Virus record (IMG/VR): IMGVR_UViG_3300025132_000368
Location: 1-21,499 of that record
Direction: 5' to 3' (one strand)
DNA length: 21,499 bases
DNA from: a virus
The notes under the pieces are model-generated. The model was not told where the DNA came from and did no database searches. It was given only the letters and a program-made list of their open reading frames with translations. Shown one piece after another: positions 1 through 16,553 of this stretch (within the stretch, counting starts at the first letter, position 1; each line of letters begins with the position of its first letter). The position numbers and the translations under genes were made by a program.

Positions 1-541
1 TAACTTCATCAACATCAACAACTAAAGATTCATCTAGTATTACTTCACCATCTTCTTCTAATAAAGAGAAAAGTTCTTTTAATAAATCATCTTCGGTTGA
101 TTCTTGTAATAGCCCTTCAAGACCACCAAGGTCACCTCCTCCAGCATCTTCACCACCTTCGGCAGGAGCTTGTTCAGCAGGAGCAGCACCAACATCAGCA
201 GCAAGGGATTCTGTATCCTGTGGCTCTTCTCCAGCGCTTTCAGGATCAGCTTCAGCTTGTTGTTTTATAGATTCAAGATCTAGTCTAAAATCTTCTGGAT
301 TAAATTCAAACTCCATTTCTAATTCGACAGGCTTATCATCTGCAAGAGAAGGATCAGAAGCGTAAGGAACTTCCATTTCTTCGTTAATTGTTTCTTGAGG
401 TTCATTACCTTCTAGTAATTCGTCAACAGCTGCTTTTATTTCTGTTGAATATTTATCAATTACGGCTTGTTCCGCATTTTTAAGTGCAGCCTCTTTTAGA
501 GCCTTTGCATCAATAATAGCTTGTTCTAACATAGATGACAT
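1..541 (-). CDS. Acidic scaffold-like head protein, C-terminus outside window
   Basis: This reading frame is open for 180 codons and runs off the window without a stop, so the C-terminus is missing. The ATG at 541 has a good AGGAG ribosome site just upstream. The visible protein is strongly acidic and rich in Ala and Glu, with an Ala/Lys-rich helical N-terminus (about residues 1-45). A Gly-rich stretch near residues 137-147 (GGEDAGGGDLGG) is followed by acidic helical segments. I recognise no domain. In T4-like phages the gene after the prohead protease normally encodes the prohead core or scaffold protein (gp22), then the major capsid protein. Composition and position fit a scaffold, though several fibre-like genes intervene here. 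The Gly-rich piece resembles a tract in the portal protein at both protein and DNA level. The role is inferred from context. Confidence 0.6.
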   Translation of the reverse strand, partial: MSSMLEQAIIDAKALKEAALKNAEQAVIDKYSTEIKAAVDELLEGNEPQETINEEMEVPYASDPSLADDKPVELEMEFEFNPEDFRLDLESIKQQAEADPESAGEEPQDTESLAADVGAAPAEQAPAEGGEDAGGGDLGGLEGLLQESTEDDLLKELFSLLEEDGEVILDESLVVDVDEV

Positions 542-9103: not shown

Positions 9104-9310
9104 CTATTTTCTTCGTTTTTTCTCTTCTTTTATTCTTCTGCGAATTGCTCTTTCTTTAGCTCTTCGTCTTTTTTCCGAGGGCTTTGTATAATGTTGACGA
9201 TCTTTTATCTCATCAATGATCCCAAGTTTTTTACATTTCTTGATAAATCGTTTAATAACTCTATCAATATTATCTTTTTTTCTGACTTTATACGTATAAT
9301 TATTTGCCAT
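9104..9310 (-). CDS. rpsU: Phage-encoded ribosomal protein bS21 homologue (68 aa)
   Basis: This very basic 68-residue protein aligns along its length with bacterial bS21. It has the RFIKKCKKLGI segment (E. coli: RFKRSCEKAGV), an EIKDRQHYTKPSEKRRRAK segment (E. coli: EVRRREFYEKPTTERKRAK) and a Lys/Arg-rich tail. Bacterial bS21 binds the 30S platform near the 3' end of 16S rRNA and helps initiation; phage copies are known and are thought to exchange into host ribosomes. The ATG at 9310 overlaps the end of the 137-residue gene by 11 bases, so translation is probably coupled. It sits in the head-assembly cluster, suggesting expression with virion genes. The family assignment is strong. The effect on host translation is inferred. 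Confidence 0.9.
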   Translation of the reverse strand: MANNYTYKVRKKDNIDRVIKRFIKKCKKLGIIDEIKDRQHYTKPSEKRRRAKERAIRRRIKEEKKRRK

Positions 9311-9713
9311 CTTTGCCTGCCATTTTTTGCCATATCAGAGAAGATTTTCCCATAAATGAAGAAATATCAACACCAGGGTCTCTTGGGTCAACATCCGATA
9401 AGGCTCCTTGCCCTTGTTCTTTTGGAGCAGGAGTAGTTCCTTCAAACAAATTGATGCCATTATAAGCATCTTTACCCACAGCTTCCATCATTTTTTTTCT
9501 TTGTTTGTTTAATCTTGTTCTAGCTTGTTCTTCTGTTTCATATTGAGGTTGTGTTTTCTTTGGGAACCTTTGTTTTGTTTCAACAATAGGTTCTCCAACT
9601 CCTTTTACAACTTCACTTATAATTGAAGAAAGAGTACCATCTTCGAAGATTACTTCTTTGATACACTCTTTTATTAATGGTTTTAAAATTTTTTTTAATT
9701 CTTGCTTATTCAT
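9300..9713 (-). CDS. Unknown head-region protein with Lys/Ile-rich N-terminal helix (137 aa)
   Basis: The ATG overlaps the protease stop by one base (TAATG) and has a GAGGG site about 6 bases upstream. The N-terminal 25 residues (MNKQELKKILKPLIKECIKE, then VIFEDG) form an amphipathic Lys/Ile-rich helix, loosely reminiscent of the N-terminal tag on the 106- and 114-residue proteins but not the same. The rest is polar, with a basic region (TRLNKQRKKMM, about residues 66-76) and a Pro/Gly-rich segment before a C-terminal GKSSLIWQKMAGK. No domain is recognised. Its place between the prohead protease and bS21 suggests a head-associated or internal protein. A CTATTTA word lies about 20 bases upstream, inside the protease gene. 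Confidence 0.6.
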   Translation of the reverse strand: MNKQELKKILKPLIKECIKEVIFEDGTLSSIISEVVKGVGEPIVETKQRFPKKTQPQYETEEQARTRLNKQRKKMMEAVGKDAYNGINLFEGTTPAPKEQGQGALSDVDPRDPGVDISSFMGKSSLIWQKMAGKDGK

Positions 9714-10342
9714 TAGTCCCTCAAGATCTTATTAAATAGATTATCAATTTGGTTTTCTTTACCCTCAGCAATTTTAAATTTCATTGCTCCTCTGTTTATT
9801 CCTGATTGATTATTTTTTGGATAAACATAAGCATTAGGAGTTGAAGGTTCAGCTACGATATCAAAACAAATTAGCTGAAAGTCTTCTTCGACAACTGTAT
9901 CACCCATTGATTCTTTTACAGAACCAAGACCTCTAGAAGAAATGCCAAGTTTTACACCAGCATTTATTAAGTCTTTGAGAATACGACCAGAAGGTGTGTC
10001 AAGAACTTTAATCTTACCCATGACATCCTTGCCTTCCCACCAACAATCAGTAATCATGTGAGATACGTTCTTTAAGTTAATCACTGAATCATCAGGGTGG
10101 TCTAGTTCACCTGTAGCTCTTCCATCAGCAACAATTTTTTTGTAATTGTCTACTTCTTTTTTAAGAACCTTCATTGGATAAACACGTCCATTTCCGTTTT
10201 TCTTGTCTGCTGATTGTATTCTTCCAACAAGATAAACAGCTCCCTCTTGGATTACCTCGCGCTTTTGTGCTTCGCTTAAGCGATCAAGGCAACGTCCATC
10301 GGGACATAATTCAAAAAATTCTGTTAATAATTGTTTACTCAT
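9713..10342 (-). CDS. Prohead core protease, T4 gp21-like (209 aa)
   Basis: The length matches the T4 prohead protease (about 210 residues). Visible family features are VGRIQSADKKNGNGRVYP (about 39-56), the GELDHP motif with the likely catalytic His82, GISSRGLG (133-140) with the likely catalytic Ser at 135 or 136, and FDIVAEPSTPNA (160-171). In T4 this enzyme works inside the prohead. It degrades the scaffold and trims the capsid and internal proteins after a Leu/Ile-X-Glu pattern. The ATG at 10342 has an ideal GGAG site with 6-base spacing. A GC-rich hairpin lies just upstream of that site. Likely substrates nearby are the scaffold-like protein at 1-541 and the two small tagged proteins. 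The assignment is firm; the substrates are inferred. Confidence 0.88.
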   Translation of the reverse strand: MSKQLLTEFFELCPDGRCLDRLSEAQKREVIQEGAVYLVGRIQSADKKNGNGRVYPMKVLKKEVDNYKKIVADGRATGELDHPDDSVINLKNVSHMITDCWWEGKDVMGKIKVLDTPSGRILKDLINAGVKLGISSRGLGSVKESMGDTVVEEDFQLICFDIVAEPSTPNAYVYPKNNQSGINRGAMKFKIAEGKENQIDNLFNKILRD

Positions 10343-10763: not shown

Positions 10764-11108
10764 TTAGTACTTTCCTCGTGACCTGTAGTCCATAGCACTA
10801 TCAAGTCCTGCATTTGGATCTTTTTGAGCTGCTCTGACTTCAATATCATTTGGTGAAACCTGTGACCCTACTTTTTGGGAAACTTGTTTTGCCAACTCCA
10901 TCTTTGCTTGTCTATTACCAGTCAAAGCTCCAGCTAAGGGCTTGTAATATTCATGCTGCCCTTTAGTGACATACATAATTGTCTTCATTCCCAGCTTAAC
11001 TTCTACGCCTTCATCACTAAATTCAGCTGTATACTTAGTGGCTTCATTCAGAACATTCTCAAGTTCTTCCTTGATTATTTGTCTTAATTGTTTGTTTGTT
11101 AGTTTCAT
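10764..11108 (-). CDS. Small tagged head-region protein (114 aa), candidate internal protein
   Basis: The N-terminus, MKLTNKQLRQIIKEEL then ENVLNEA, is almost the same as that of the 106-residue protein at 16233-16553. The remaining sequences show no visible similarity. The tag is an amphipathic helix ending in Leu-Asn-Glu followed by Ala, which fits the Leu/Ile-X-Glu site cut by T4-type prohead proteases. T4 internal proteins carry a comparable N-terminal capsid-targeting sequence. The body (about residues 23-114) is mixed and includes KMELAKQVSQKVGSQ and a C-terminal DYRSRGKY. The ATG at 11108 has an AAGGAG site and a CTATTTA motif 31 bases upstream. The proposed role, a protein packaged inside the head and trimmed by the protease, is an inference. 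Confidence 0.65.
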   Translation of the reverse strand: MKLTNKQLRQIIKEELENVLNEATKYTAEFSDEGVEVKLGMKTIMYVTKGQHEYYKPLAGALTGNRQAKMELAKQVSQKVGSQVSPNDIEVRAAQKDPNAGLDSAMDYRSRGKY

Positions 11109-11138
11109 TTTAGATCTCCTTTGTAAAACAATTTACTA

Positions 11139-11145
11139 TAAATAG
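11139..11145 (-). promoter_or_regulatory. CTATTTA intergenic motif upstream of the 114-residue gene
   Basis: The minus strand reads TACTATTTATAGTA, a dyad with 5-bp arms, in the 39-base gap before the tagged gene. It is 17 bases ahead of the AAGGAG ribosome site. Confidence 0.4.
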
Positions 11146-11147
11146 TA

Positions 11148-11828
11148 TTAATAAGTGTAACGACCATACAAATATGGCGCAAAAAGACCATGTTGAACAA
11201 TTGATCCTTTTTCTTCTGAATGCGGCACTTCACCTAATTTTGTGTGGTTCTCTTCATCAGGCTCTAGTTGAGCATCTTGCATCATATCATCATGTCCTTT
11301 TTTCATTTTTGATGACGGAGCTTCAGACTTTATCCATTCAGATAACTGATAAATTGCAGATTTCATTGGATCTCTTTCTTTTGATTCGTGTATCTTGCCT
11401 TCAAGAGAACCGTAAACATTACCACCTTGAATTGAGTCATACTCAATAATACCATTGTGCCTCATCCATTCCATAAGACGAGACTCGGCTCCATAAACAA
11501 CTTCTGACATCAAGTCTTTTGGAAAAGCAACAATCTTCTTTTTTTCAACCATCAAGACAATATCAATGTCAGCATGATCAAAAACTAACAAATCACCATT
11601 AAGAGCTTTGCGAACATTCATTTCAAATTTTGTAGTTCTTGCATTGTTGTTAACGATATCCACAGTAATTTGTGGTTTTATGTAAATGTCTTTACCTCTT
11701 TCTATATCTATACCTATGTCTGTGTCAGATTCTGGAGGTTTAAAGTCAATACCTGTTGGTGTTTGAATATCAATACCAATATCTTCTTGTAATAAATCCG
11801 AAACTATATCTTGTGGCTTTTTATACAT
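11148..11828 (-). CDS. Unknown head-region protein with DIGIDI repeats (226 aa)
   Basis: The ATG directly follows the stop of the 264-residue gene, with GGAG about 12 bases upstream. The first 60 residues are acidic and contain DIGIDI twice (about 16-21 and 37-42) in a beta-prone, Pro-spaced stretch. The middle (about 70-145) looks like a folded mixed domain with FEMNVRKALNGDLLVFDHAD and AESRLMEWMRHNGII. The C-terminus is charged and ends in PYLYGRYTY. I recognise no family. It lies two genes after the portal, where T4-like phages carry small head-assembly genes, so a prohead component is a reasonable guess. No enzyme motif is visible. Confidence 0.6.
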   Translation of the reverse strand: MYKKPQDIVSDLLQEDIGIDIQTPTGIDFKPPESDTDIGIDIERGKDIYIKPQITVDIVNNNARTTKFEMNVRKALNGDLLVFDHADIDIVLMVEKKKIVAFPKDLMSEVVYGAESRLMEWMRHNGIIEYDSIQGGNVYGSLEGKIHESKERDPMKSAIYQLSEWIKSEAPSSKMKKGHDDMMQDAQLEPDEENHTKLGEVPHSEEKGSIVQHGLFAPYLYGRYTY

Positions 11829-12623
11829 TTACTTAATCTCCGATAAAAGTTGTTGAATATGGAAGACATCTTTAATTACTTCCTCAGTCAAAGGTTTCTT
11901 TTTGAAATCTTCAAGCCTCTCTTTAACTAGTTTTATTTTATCAGACCATTGCCCTTCACTTAAATTTTCGCACTGTTCTTTTAATCTTCCAATTTCTTCG
12001 TTCATAAACATCTTAAGTCCAAGACCATTGTCAGAAAATGACGTGATATAATTGGTCAACAACTCTCTTTGTTCTTTCAAAAGAGTTTCTTTATACGCAT
12101 CATTGAATTTAGAAACAAATGTTTTATATGTGAGTGCATCAACAGTCTTTAATTTATCCTCTTTAATCGCTTGAGGATGCGAAATAACAAGCGTTTTAAG
12201 TTTTTCTTCTATCAATAGACGGGTCTTTGCTTTAACGCCATTAGAATTGAAATACTGCCCGACTGTTGCTATTGATTTATAATTAGAGATAAAGTTTCCA
12301 AATGCTTCTGGAAGCTTATGGTTAAACTCTTTTATCAAACTAGTTTGCTCGTTAAAGATTTCTTTTCTATCAAGAGCTTCCCAGTCTTCTTTTACTTCTT
12401 TCATGTAACGAAGCCCAAGAGATTCCTCAAGCTTCTGTGGCTCCATCAACTGTTTGTATAGTTGTAAATCGTTATAAAGAGGTTTTCCTTTAGAGAAATA
12501 TCTCTTTAAGGTCTCAACAATTTGTTGTTTCTTTTCAAGCTCTCCTCTTACAACAGCCTTTGTCATTTCTTTGATAAGGCACTCGTAAAGAAAAGCGGTA
12601 TTTCTTTTCTTATTATGTTTCAT
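11829..12623 (-). CDS. Helical head-region protein following the portal (264 aa)
   Basis: The ATG at 12623 overlaps the end of the portal gene by 11 bases, with AAGGA about 10 bases upstream. The protein is highly charged (Lys/Glu-rich) and appears almost entirely alpha-helical. Likely coiled-coil stretches are around residues 20-45, 175-200 and 215-262 (FMNEEIGRLKEQCENLSEGQ, KLVKERLEDFKKK). There is no signal peptide or membrane segment. I do not recognise a named family. Tight coupling to the portal gene and the helical, charged character suggest a prohead core component or an assembly chaperone. This is inference from composition and position. Confidence 0.6.
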   Translation of the reverse strand: MKHNKKRNTAFLYECLIKEMTKAVVRGELEKKQQIVETLKRYFSKGKPLYNDLQLYKQLMEPQKLEESLGLRYMKEVKEDWEALDRKEIFNEQTSLIKEFNHKLPEAFGNFISNYKSIATVGQYFNSNGVKAKTRLLIEEKLKTLVISHPQAIKEDKLKTVDALTYKTFVSKFNDAYKETLLKEQRELLTNYITSFSDNGLGLKMFMNEEIGRLKEQCENLSEGQWSDKIKLVKERLEDFKKKPLTEEVIKDVFHIQQLLSEIK

Positions 12624-14577
12624 CGATTGGTTCCTTTTTGTTTAATGATTCAATAAGCATCTCAACTTCGCGAGATACAGTTTCTAATTTTTGCTCTTCT
12701 TCTAAATATCCACCAGCAGCTTGAGAAAGAGAGTATTCGTTTCCAACATAGCCTTTATATATGTTACGACCAGTTGCTCTAGATGCCTCAATCCCTGTTG
12801 CTCCGAGCATAGATTTCTTCATGCCGCCTTTGTCATAGGAGGATTGGTGTGATTTGTATGGACCACGTTTTCGCAAATCAGGGTTGTTAAATCCTTTCTT
12901 TCTTGGAATATCCACATACGGAGGTGTGTCATCTCGTTTTGCAGAGGGTTCGGCGAGCAGATCGGTGTCACCTCCTTCGTCGCCGCCGACATCTCCTCCA
13001 CCGGTGTCTCCACCGCCAAGGTCACCTCCAAGGTCACCTCCCATATCATCACCTCCTCCTCCACCAAGATCATCCATTCCACCAGCAAGGCCACCGCCTC
13101 CACCAGCATCTTCACCAGCTTCACCACCAGCAGTAGCTGCTTCAAGTTTAGCAGCAAACTTCTTATCAAAGAACATTTCTCTCTGATTACGAAGAAACTC
13201 GTCCTCGGACATACCAAAAACATTTTCTGAAATCCATCGTTTTGAAAAGTACCCTTCGGTTGCAGCACCAGCAACAGAGAATTTTTTATTCCAATGCTCT
13301 AGCTCTTGCAACTCAGCAATTTTTGATGGATTGTTTAATTGTAATTTAAAAGTTAACAAATCATCATTTCTATAGCCTAGTGTGTAAAGATGGATAATGC
13401 CAATTTTTTCTAGTTCAGAAATAGCAACACGTTGTAATCTTTGTATTGTTCTTGCAAAACGAATATCTTTCTGTGCAAGTGTTGTTTTATCTTCTGTTGC
13501 ACCTTCTCCCATTGTCAAATAAGATTGTGGTATCTTCAACGCGGCAAACAATTTGTCTCTCAAATATTTAACATCATCAATACCACCATTATAGGCAGCC
13601 CCGGGGAGAGAGGTAATATCAGTTGAAGACTGTCCTCCACGGATAGGAATATAATAATCTTCTTCAATAGACAGAGGATTGTAACGCAAATCAACACGAC
13701 CAGTAGATGGGTCAACAACAGAATGTCTTTTTAGTTGTGTCATGACTTTCTGCATATATTGTTCAACGTCTTGTGGAGGTATTCCGCCAACGTCAATTTT
13801 AAACAATCTTCTCTCAGGAGCACGAACAATTCTGTAAGCCATCATAGCATCTTCTAATAGTATAAGTTGACGGTGAATTCTTCTACAGGCTTCAAGCACT
13901 GATGTTCCGTAAGGAGAATGTTTATCATTACCAAGGATTCTGAAGTGGGCAACTTGCCAATTCTCCAGAGTTAGTCCGGCTGTATTCCACTGGTACTGAA
14001 CGTAATTAGGATTACTTTGGTCTTCTCCCTCAAGGCGCTCGATCTCTCTAGTAGGTAATCCAATTGCAGATCGAATTCCCATATCTTCATCAATGTCAAG
14101 ATATAAGAAAAAATCACCGTACTTACACATTGTTCGTGCCCAACCAAAAAGGTTGTGCTCAATGTTTAACACATTATGATATAAATTATGGAGGATGTGT
14201 TTGATTTCTTCGTTCGCACACTTAATGTTAAGCATTGGACGAAGTGCAGTATGAGTTGTCATCTCATCGGCATAAATGTCTAAGGAAGATGCTATTTCTG
14301 GCATATATTCCATTTCATCAAAGTCAACATAACGCTCAGCTCTACCTCTATTTGATATCATATTAAGAGTGGTGTTATTCATTGGGTTATATTCCCATTT
14401 TTTAAACTGTGCACCAGAAGCTGATTTGAACTTACTTGCGTAATCATCGAGTTGTCTTCTTCGCAACATTCGACCTGTTTGTGTTCTTCGTTGTGTTATT
14501 GGACCAGAGAACAGTTTTGTTAAAGCCTTAAATAAATCTGATTGTGGATTATAAGGCGACTTTTTATATTTTGACAT
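12613..14577 (-). CDS. Portal protein, T4 gp20-like, with Gly/Asp-rich insert (654 aa)
   Basis: The portal is the ring at the head vertex through which DNA enters and leaves. Recognisable gp20-type landmarks are EMEYMPEIASSLDIYADE (88-105), the APERRLFKIDVGGIPPQDVE run (253-272), VVDPSTGRV (287-295), EDYYIPIRGGQSSTDITSLPG (306-326) and VKYLRDKLFAALKIPQSYL (336-354). T4 gp20 is about 520 residues; the extra length is mostly C-terminal. It includes a tract of nearly pure Gly and Asp (483-537) and a charged tail. The ATG at 14577 has AAAGGA upstream, preceded by a CTATTTA motif and a perfect sigma70 promoter. The gene overlaps the next by 11 bases. The assignment is firm; the function of the Gly/Asp tract is unknown. 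Confidence 0.92.
   Translation of the reverse strand: MSKYKKSPYNPQSDLFKALTKLFSGPITQRRTQTGRMLRRRQLDDYASKFKSASGAQFKKWEYNPMNNTTLNMISNRGRAERYVDFDEMEYMPEIASSLDIYADEMTTHTALRPMLNIKCANEEIKHILHNLYHNVLNIEHNLFGWARTMCKYGDFFLYLDIDEDMGIRSAIGLPTREIERLEGEDQSNPNYVQYQWNTAGLTLENWQVAHFRILGNDKHSPYGTSVLEACRRIHRQLILLEDAMMAYRIVRAPERRLFKIDVGGIPPQDVEQYMQKVMTQLKRHSVVDPSTGRVDLRYNPLSIEEDYYIPIRGGQSSTDITSLPGAAYNGGIDDVKYLRDKLFAALKIPQSYLTMGEGATEDKTTLAQKDIRFARTIQRLQRVAISELEKIGIIHLYTLGYRNDDLLTFKLQLNNPSKIAELQELEHWNKKFSVAGAATEGYFSKRWISENVFGMSEDEFLRNQREMFFDKKFAAKLEAATAGGEAGEDAGGGGGLAGGMDDLGGGGGDDMGGDLGGDLGGGDTGGGDVGGDEGGDTDLLAEPSAKRDDTPPYVDIPRKKGFNNPDLRKRGPYKSHQSSYDKGGMKKSMLGATGIEASRATGRNIYKGYVGNEYSLSQAAGGYLEEEQKLETVSREVEMLIESLNKKEPIDET
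12967..13131 (-). repeat. Low-complexity Gly/Asp-coding tract in the portal gene
   Basis: It encodes residues 483-537 of the portal, almost only Gly, Asp and a few Ala, Leu, Met and Thr. GGAGGTGACCTT-type units recur. It is locally GC-rich, and one piece matches DNA in the scaffold-like gene near 120-155. Confidence 0.8.
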
Positions 14578-14595
14578 AGCTCATCCTTTTCGTAA

Positions 14596-14602
14596 TAAAT
14601 AG
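14596..14602 (-). promoter_or_regulatory. CTATTTA intergenic motif upstream of the portal gene
   Basis: The minus strand reads GAACTATTTATTACG, 4 bases after the -10 box of a sigma70-type promoter and about 7 bases before the ribosome site. It therefore overlaps the expected transcription start. Confidence 0.45.
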
Positions 14603-14606
14603 TTCT

Positions 14607-14635
14607 ATTATAGCATAAAGCATTTGGTTTGTCAA
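14607..14635 (-). promoter_or_regulatory. Perfect sigma70-type promoter upstream of the portal gene
   Basis: On the minus strand TTGACA (14635-14630), a 17-base spacer and TATAAT (14612-14607) match the bacterial consensus at all 12 positions with ideal spacing. The -35 box abuts the terminase stop codon. Transcription would begin near 14600, about 20 bases before the portal ATG. A host RNA polymerase could therefore transcribe the head operon directly. Confidence 0.85.
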
Positions 14636-14636
14636 G

Positions 14637-16223
14637 CTAACCTTTGAAAATCCAAGCAAAGTCCTTATAAGTTTTTTGGAAATCTTCAAGAGCCTCTTCA
14701 GTTTTTGTACCAGCATAACCTCTCATACCTTTGATAGCTGTATTCATAGTGGTTTGAGATGACTTAATTGAGGTAATCATTGCCTCTTGATACATTCGAT
14801 CTTTTTCCGATACTTCTAGGGCTGTATCTCGAACCCAACACGCTATAGCCAAAGACATAATTAGATCATCATGATAGGATCTCATAGCTTGTGGCTTACC
14901 ATTGTTCCATATAAAAGTTTTCATTTCGTGGAAAAGTCGAGATGATTTAGGTTTTACTAATTTGTTTCTTATATATTCTTCTAACTTAGCTACAATCAAA
15001 GGTCTTGTCTTCATAGAGGTCGTAAACCCTATAACAGCTCTATCATTATATTCACCTTCAAGAGAATCAACATACTCATGTGTTGATTTGATTGAGTAAT
15101 AAAGATTTGGATACCCAAGATCTCTTACTTTTTCACAAGCTGCTATTCCTATGCCAACATTTTCAATTACCATAAGGCAATTACCATACTCTTTTCCTGC
15201 ATCAAATAGTATTTTTGCAAAATAATCCATTGTTGGTTTGCCTTGATATTCAGCAACAACATCCATCGTATCTGTGCGAAGTACGTGAAACACAGAAGAG
15301 TCCGCTCCATCACCTCTTGCAACATCAGCAACGAGAAGATATGGTACACCTTCTTGATACTTTTCCCAAATCCACAAGTTTCTATCCCAACCAGTTTTGT
15401 ATTCTGGATCTGATATATTTTCAAATATCCAGTGTATATCATCTGGGTGTATAACTGTTTCTCCGGACGTATTAAAATTACACTCAAGTTCTTGTGCTAT
15501 TTGTCTCCTTGACATATTTTTTGTTTCTTTCTCGAACCAAGCCTGGTCACGTTCAGGGTGAACATCCCAAGGCAAAGAAACATGATGAAACTCATTGTCT
15601 CCATTCTCTGCGTCTATGTAGGTTCTGTGAAACCAGTTTCCAACACCCATAGGAGTTGATAAAGCGATACAGCGACCCCCTGTTGATAGCGTAGGGTAAA
15701 GACCTGCCCAAAGGTCATCAAGACCATCAACGTGAGCTGCCTCATCAATAATCAACAAAGACAAAGCTTCTGAACGACCAGCATCTGCCGATGTTCCAAC
15801 TGCTTTGATTGTTGAACCATTAGAGAGCTCAAACGATGTTCTGTTGTCGATTGTAATGTCAGCAACCTTCATCCATGGTGGGAGGTTCTTCATTACCATT
15901 TTTACTTTCTTTACTAGATTGGCAGCAGTTCCAAATTTGGTTGCCATAACAAGTATGTTTTTTTCTTTGTGGAATAGCATAAACCACACAGCATAAGCAG
16001 CTGAGATCGTAGAGATACCAAGCTGTCTTGCTTTGAGGATAACAGTAAAGCGATAATCATTAAAGTCTTTTACTAAATCGTCTTGATAAGGATATGTATT
16101 AAAAGGAATTAAACCCTTAAGAGGGTGTGAGATCCGACAATAGTTGTTTATAAAGTATAATGGATCTTTTCCGCTTTTAAGGATTTCTTTTATTATATCT
16201 TGCTTTGATAACTTAAGTGACAT
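14637..16223 (-). CDS. terL: Terminase large subunit, T4 gp17-like (528 aa)
   Basis: This is the DNA-packaging motor: an N-terminal ATPase pumps DNA and a C-terminal nuclease cuts it. Visible motifs are a Walker A-type KARQLGIST (64-72, like the Arg-Gln-Leu-Gly form of T4 gp17), Walker B LLIIDEA (156-162), coupling motif LSTP (188-191), and nuclease acidic residues in VADVARGDG (Asp300), VIENVG (Glu354) and SYHDDLIMSLA (Asp452/Asp453). T4 gp17 is about 610 residues, so this is a somewhat compact version. The ATG at 16223 has GAGG upstream and follows the 106-residue gene by 9 bases. No small terminase subunit is recognised; one of the upstream unknown genes may fill that role. The protein docks on the portal encoded next. 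Confidence 0.95.
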   Translation of the reverse strand: MSLKLSKQDIIKEILKSGKDPLYFINNYCRISHPLKGLIPFNTYPYQDDLVKDFNDYRFTVILKARQLGISTISAAYAVWFMLFHKEKNILVMATKFGTAANLVKKVKMVMKNLPPWMKVADITIDNRTSFELSNGSTIKAVGTSADAGRSEALSLLIIDEAAHVDGLDDLWAGLYPTLSTGGRCIALSTPMGVGNWFHRTYIDAENGDNEFHHVSLPWDVHPERDQAWFEKETKNMSRRQIAQELECNFNTSGETVIHPDDIHWIFENISDPEYKTGWDRNLWIWEKYQEGVPYLLVADVARGDGADSSVFHVLRTDTMDVVAEYQGKPTMDYFAKILFDAGKEYGNCLMVIENVGIGIAACEKVRDLGYPNLYYSIKSTHEYVDSLEGEYNDRAVIGFTTSMKTRPLIVAKLEEYIRNKLVKPKSSRLFHEMKTFIWNNGKPQAMRSYHDDLIMSLAIACWVRDTALEVSEKDRMYQEAMITSIKSSQTTMNTAIKGMRGYAGTKTEEALEDFQKTYKDFAWIFKG

Positions 16224-16232
16224 TATGCCTCA

Positions 16233-16553
16233 TTAAAAAGCGGCAGTTGGACCAACTTCCTCGTAACCCATCGCTAGTAATTTTTGTCTAGATTCTGTTG
16301 CATGATCTCCGCCTGCTGTATTATCGTAAGCAAAATAGTTTTCGCCATCTCTTCCTCTAGCTATTAATTTGTCATCACCAACAAACTTAAACTGTCCAGG
16401 AGCTAAATCGGCATATTGATTTCTTTCTTCTGGTCGCATATTTTGGTTAACACTAAGAGGTATATGTTCGTTTGTATCGTCTATATACTCATTCATTAAA
16501 TTATCTAATTCTTCTTTAATAATTTGTTTTAATTGTTCATTTGTGAGTTTCAT
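16233..16553 (-). CDS. Small tagged protein next to terminase (106 aa), candidate internal protein
   Basis: The first 22 residues (MKLTNEQLKQIIKEEL, then DNLMNE) match the N-terminus of the 114-residue protein at 17 of 22 positions by direct comparison. The remainder (acidic, with QYADLAPGQFKFVGDDKLIA and DGENYFAYDNTAGGDHATES) shows no similarity to it. The shared leader fits a targeting sequence trimmed by the prohead protease. The tag offers Ile-Lys-Glu and a Met-Asn-Glu near its end. The gene starts inside the stop of the previous gene (ATGA overlap), so translation is coupled. What the body does is unknown. Alternatives are a terminase-associated protein or a small virion protein. Confidence 0.65.
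   Translation of the reverse strand: MKLTNEQLKQIIKEELDNLMNEYIDDTNEHIPLSVNQNMRPEERNQYADLAPGQFKFVGDDKLIARGRDGENYFAYDNTAGGDHATESRQKLLAMGYEEVGPTAAF

Follow-up and report, generated by a model that had tools for sequence, protein, structure and literature searches.

A probable capsid-targeting leader shared by unrelated proteins in a lineage of T4-like phages

Why should two small proteins of an uncultured T4-like phage, with bodies that bear no likeness to each other, begin with nearly the same 22 residues, and could that shared start be an address that sends proteins into the phage head? The question is raised by a 21.5-kb IMG/VR record, which was analysed whole and is called here the window (21,499 nucleotides). 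The sea is rich in T4-like phages, and the function of most of their genes is not known. Bacterial defences first encounter the proteins that are injected with phage DNA; to our knowledge, such proteins are not recognisable outside a few model phages.

The initial annotation had the coordinates of the two ORFs right, and our one correction to it is that all genes lie on the minus strand, including the tagged genes, the protease and the entire head module. In transcription order, an SbcC/gp46-like ORF and several small ORFs lead to TagB (16553-16233), the T4-type terminase large subunit (16223-14637 (-); Pfam and PHROGs matches), the portal protein of T4 gp20 type (14577-12613 (-); Pfam PF07230, E 9.5e-78), conserved proteins of 264 and 226 amino acids, TagA (11108-10764), a 109-residue protein, the protease (10342-9713), a conserved 137-residue protein directly 3' of it (9300-9713 (-); matches in many fetched loci), bS21 and large fibre-like proteins. 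A gp22-like scaffold N-terminus (401-541 (-); tblastn E 1e-9 to a relative's scaffold) continues past the window end. The gene for ribosomal protein bS21 (9104-9310 (-); Pfam PF01165, E 5.8e-15) sits within the head-gene block, and in Microcystis phage Mel-JY01 the gene at the equivalent place carries the annotation RpsU.

TagA (114 amino acids) begins with MKLTNKQLRQIIKEELENVLNE, followed by AT, and TagB (106 amino acids) with MKLTNEQLKQIIKEELDNLMNE, followed by YI. As first claimed, 17 of the 22 residues are identical; among 200,000 composition-preserving shuffles the maximum was 12 identities, seen once. BLASTP aligned residues 1-29 alone (E 2e-10) and found nothing between the two bodies, in agreement with the earlier reading that the likeness stops at the tag. 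The codons differ at 6 of 13 identical residues and the DNA upstream of the two tags is unrelated, so the resemblance is kept at the protein level. Translation bears out that the TagA leader ends in Leu-Asn-Glu before Ala; that of TagB ends in Met-Asn-Glu before Tyr, with Met at P3 and Tyr at P1'. Predicted cuts after Glu22 would divide TagA into a leader (11043-11108 (-)), delimited by translation, the profile of 563 proteins described below and site statistics, and a basic body of 92 amino acids (10764-11042 (-); pI 9.2). TagB would likewise be divided into a leader (16488-16553 (-)), delimited by translation and a search of its own genome, and an acidic body of 84 amino acids (16233-16487 (-); pI 4.6).

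Neither protein matched Pfam or PHROGs, homolog searches with the TagA body were negative, and a relative of the TagB body was searched for and not found. Whole TagA, whole TagB and the leader consensus had no real tblastn match in 50,697 phage records, and the relatives of TagA in IMG/VR resemble it mainly within the first 20-60 residues. Single-sequence AlphaFold models were poor for TagA (pLDDT 58), with a low-confidence leader helix at 5-22, and usable for TagB (pLDDT 74), where a helix at 5-28 is followed by a separate small domain of predicted beta-beta-beta-alpha topology. A fold search with the models gave no match below E 0.001.

A search for other proteins with the same start, which the initial annotation had proposed as a check, found hundreds in related phages, with unrelated bodies. 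In the IMG/VR loci fetched, a profile of this start (leader 1) identified it on 563 distinct proteins of otherwise unrelated sequence, at a threshold that 0 of 34,953 shuffled starts reached; the leader is thus a module. A degenerate DNA pattern of the tag occurs in more than 120 IMG/VR stretches, several with two to four copies, and has no match in 84,980 bacterial and archaeal genomes. Each of twenty large contigs has between 1 and 12 leader-1 matches. In a set of 80 loci fetched through portal similarity, independently of the tag, 51 have leader 1 or a second leader described below, versus 0 of 169 random viral loci (Fisher 1e-32). Leader 1 is absent from four random S77-bearing contigs and from T4 by profile search, and is therefore lineage-specific. 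Our literature search found no paper with the tag, with the leader peptides or with a marine capsid-targeting leader, and no virion proteomics for any leader-carrying phage, phage immuto included.

The leader-1 consensus is M-K-I-T-K-x-Q-L-K-Q-I-I-K-E-E-L-E-x-V-L-x-E. The information content stays high through residue 16, drops to a weaker but distinct signal at 19, 20 and 22, and is close to noise from 24 onwards, so that conservation ends sharply at residue 22 in a [Leu/Ile/Met]-x-Glu site, the cleavage pattern of T4 gp21. This site, with Glu at 22, is present in 41% of 492 nonredundant carriers, versus 3.2% (maximum 5.3%) when residues 17-27 of the carriers were shuffled. Within residues 19-26, 62% of carriers have [LIM]xE, compared with 6-11% in control windows, and about 38% lack a clean site there. 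P1' is mostly Gly, Ala, Gln or Ser. Between copies in one genome, the same residue has a different codon in 23-46% of comparisons and the upstream DNA differs, and selection therefore acts on the protein. The leader is amphipathic, with a moment of 0.37-0.39.

Some longer ORFs have internal copies of leader 1 (L273:3827-4915 (-), and ORFs in G013, G030 and G042); in L273, the 362-residue ORF right after the protease has copies at residues 1 and 142. Such copies are not explained by a removable N-terminal leader and may represent cargo fusions or an additional site for docking. Two shortened relatives, MKLNSRTLKDMIKEVLSE before EN (L281:14348 (+)) and MKAEELRALIREVLAE before QD (L285:3776 (+)), have the middle deleted and the terminal LxE kept. 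The N-terminus of the 137-residue protein, IKECIKEVIFE, is loosely like leader 1 and ranks by profile within the top 2% of untagged ORFs, a range in which generic helices score alike; as a sequence likeness it is only suggestive of an origin of leader 1 from this conserved protein.

The nearby gp21-like protease named at the outset proved to be a clear Peptidase_S77 member (ORF 9713-10342 (-); Pfam PF03420, E 1.4e-32, 113 bits against a curated cut-off of 27; PHROG 207; alignment), that is, a prohead core serine protease of T4 gp21 type. It has an LxE site in its own N-terminus (MSKQLLTE) and is presumed to remove the leaders. S77 was found in 24 of 39 tag-fetched contigs, among them all eight of at least 120 kb, and in 12 of 13 contigs with leader 3 (see below), versus 4 of 21 contigs drawn at random and 60 kb or longer (p 0.0017 and 4e-5, respectively). 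It was not found in the other 15 of the 39, many of which are fragments. Portal_T4 is present in 26 of the 39. The major capsid protein in 13 related loci has an invariant LL[KR]E before [ASTV] near residue 59, the relative place of the T4 gp23 cut, where cultured relatives have [VI]SE before AN. Intein sequence interrupts two genes of a large phage on a 244,715-base contig (IMGVR_UViG_3300036766_002181, here L292): the S77 protease has one insertion (L292:9830-11557 (-)), and the T4-type portal ORF of 2361 amino acids has several intein-splicing stretches together with LAGLIDADG and HNH domains (L292:12630-19715 (-)).

Leader 1 is not alone. Leader 2, M-K-L-[LI]-[LMF]-E-N-W-R-K-[FY]-L-x-E, was first spotted in the gene maps of relatives and is found on 95 nonredundant proteins; it ends in [LIV]xE, with Glu in 72%, and conservation stops there. 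It shares genomes with leader 1, and the genes that have it are grouped in tandem, three or four to a cargo island. Leader 3, MxNFDLKKFLVENKLTxNS[KR]LLxE, comes from Flavobacterium phage immuto, the closest cultured relative, and IMG/VR has 111 nonredundant proteins with it, of which 76 have the site at motif position 21 and another 20 have it at position 20. Phage immuto_2-6A encodes an S77 protease and has leader 3 on at least three annotated proteins, gp003, gp076 and gp077 (in gp077 the expected cut would follow LLKE); tblastn places the leader at four sites there, and gp080 opens with a leader-1-like start. The three leaders differ in sequence and have the same terminal hydrophobic-x-Glu site, which would be hard to explain otherwise and therefore argues for a shared protease. 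A possible fourth leader, MKKQILSEQFRRMQKLAGIITE before SQ, was seen in a single instance, phage immuto gp083 (L466:6676-7140 (+)).

Leaders 1 and 2 exchange with each other. In nine pairs of homologous bodies one member has leader 1 and the other leader 2, for example at L207:960 and L202:2947, where the bodies are 67% identical over 109 amino acids, and in the P-loop kinases of L086 and L038. Cargo domains start just past the site, as in MRRLFENWKNYMVE followed directly by NKLRVFDFDDTL. The cargo includes P-loop enzymes (polynucleotide-kinase-like and zeta-toxin-like), GNAT, NUDIX, HAD-like, protein kinase, exonuclease, nucleotidyltransferase, DUF2608, pentapeptide repeat and YkuD families, and many leader carriers lie in cargo clusters away from the head module. 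Most cargo bodies are outside known families; no replisome or tail family was among those listed for the scanned carriers, most of which have no known family. L280:7361-7705 (-), with YHITRSENIPLIMKDG, was read by eye as an ADP-ribosyltransferase, and this was dropped when Pfam support was not significant. Proteins of the family CPxATQDLELNTKNRD...IQYGPLNV have leader 2 at L134:8865-9344, L251:9730-10173 (-) and L280:1201-1644 (-), and a different start in L005, L008, L025, L095, L118, L119 and L148, which offers a natural comparison for targeting.

The closest known parallel is in T4, where Mullaney and Black reportedly described in 1996 a capsid targeting sequence (CTS) of the internal proteins IPI, IPII and IPIII. 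Like the CTS, leader 1 is short, lies at the extreme N-terminus, is common to unrelated bodies and ends in hydrophobic-x-Glu (both window copies have [LM]NE); its cargo is diverse and fast-changing, and the window phage and its relatives have an S77 protease and a T4-type portal. It differs in having 22 residues instead of 10, in reaching as many as 12 leader-1 matches on a contig, in sharing genomes with another type of leader, and in sequence, since the leader-1 profile has no match in T4 and only the terminal LxE layout is in common with the IP leader MKTYQEFIAE. Leader 2 is nearer in layout: the IPIII leader resembles it, and, in a comparison set of the N-termini of Alt, gp22 and gp24, gp24 (MAKINELLRE before S) and Alt (MELITELFDE before D) are laid out as in MKLLLENWRKYLNE before S, a likeness that does not imply homology. 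Foreign proteins enter the prohead when given no more than the 10-residue IPIII leader, which gp21 cuts off after Glu; cargo with such leaders is injected and able to inhibit restriction (PMC9026906, PMC3012670). Removal and targeting are known for the T4 CTS, and we infer them for leader 1 by analogy.

Other phages offer looser parallels. In the giant phage SPN3US, short N-terminal propeptides of head proteins (gp45, 20 amino acids; gp225, 24 amino acids) are removed by an S77-type protease after x-x-Glu, and gp53 and gp54 are diverged proteins with identical N-termini (PMC5694885, PMC10052503). Here too an N-terminal leader with an x-x-Glu end is common to diverged proteins, although the SPN3US motif is AxE on few proteins, whereas the leaders here have LxE on hundreds. 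In phage P1, the N-terminal 30 residues of DarB direct the protein into the head for delivery to the host (PMC9024508). Leader 1 would be a similar N-terminal head-packaging signal, but the P1 Dar proteins have no such consensus and the DarB sequence is unrelated.

We consider it likely that leader 1 is a lineage-specific capsid-targeting leader that acts in the manner of the T4 CTS. While the head is assembled, the leader's short amphipathic helix would dock the precursor on the scaffold core inside the prohead, and the S77 protease would cut after [LIM]-x-Glu at residue 22; the freed small body, unrelated from carrier to carrier, would remain alongside the DNA in the head and, most likely, enter the host by ejection, with which the enzyme-like cargo is consistent. 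The head-targeting interpretation of the initial annotation is supported, and for docking, cleavage, packaging and ejection the T4 system is the guide. Against this reading stand the roughly 38% of carriers without a clean site, the Met at P3 and Tyr at P1' of TagB, the internal copies, the lack of detectable sequence similarity to the T4 CTS, a cargo that is mostly without known family, and the 15 of 39 contigs, many of them fragments, in which S77 was not found.

Some of the same facts would suit a leader that is not removed at all, an uncut helix retained on the mature protein and docking to the head surface, the portal, GroEL or other machinery: the leader is amphipathic and modelled as helical, LxE is missing from some carriers, and internal copies exist. 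Yet conservation ends at the Glu of LxE in three dissimilar leaders, the capsid proteins of the clade have the same kind of site, and the S77 association is strong, which makes an uncut helix improbable. A better case can be made for proteins of the prohead core or scaffold, which would give the head its shape and then be degraded or expelled as it matures instead of being injected. TagA, between portal and protease, occupies the T4 slot of core genes 67/68, and the 137-residue protein encoded next after the protease starts in a loosely similar way; this account could apply to TagA and TagB themselves, both of which have orphan bodies. As an account of the carriers we nevertheless think it rather unlikely: their bodies are unrelated to one another and in many cases orphan, some are enzymes (P-loop kinases, NUDIX, GNAT, HAD-like), and many carriers are encoded in clusters away from the head module.

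A shared start that is no protein signal could come from DNA that moves or was duplicated, or from a signal for translation initiation, and this would fit the many tandem copies in one genome, often overlapping the preceding stop. It is, however, the amino acids that are conserved, through residue 22, and the codon differences between copies in one genome, whose upstream DNA differs as well, lead us to reject both versions of this very improbable account. Coincidence, or the plain common ancestry of two paralogues, is hardly credible: it has in its favour that the window holds two tagged proteins only, and is rejected by the counts, with 17 of 22 identities unequalled in the shuffles, dissimilar bodies and hundreds of further carriers.

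Building on the capsid-targeting reading, we suggest as a possibility, although a doubtful one, a modular system of address labels, in which several leaders, two of them co-occurring and interchangeable, share one protease motif and supply each head with a dozen or more effectors; the choice of leader might determine which layer of the core a cargo reaches, or its copy number. If so, these phages would be carriers of large injected effector sets that could be listed from sequence alone.

On the best reading, then, this is a system of a known kind, the T4 CTS, and what is new is the different leader sequences and a much larger cargo set. The leader very probably sends its carriers into the phage head and therefore marks candidate injected proteins. 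Leader 3 is present in cultured immuto phages, which puts the idea within reach of laboratory tests. Exchange of leaders shows a route by which phages can recruit new cargo, and the cargo covers enzyme classes used against hosts or their defences, namely kinases, acetyltransferases, NUDIX and HAD-like enzymes and nucleases. With a leader that can be read from sequence, hundreds of orphan genes become listed candidates for proteins that lie inside the head and are injected.
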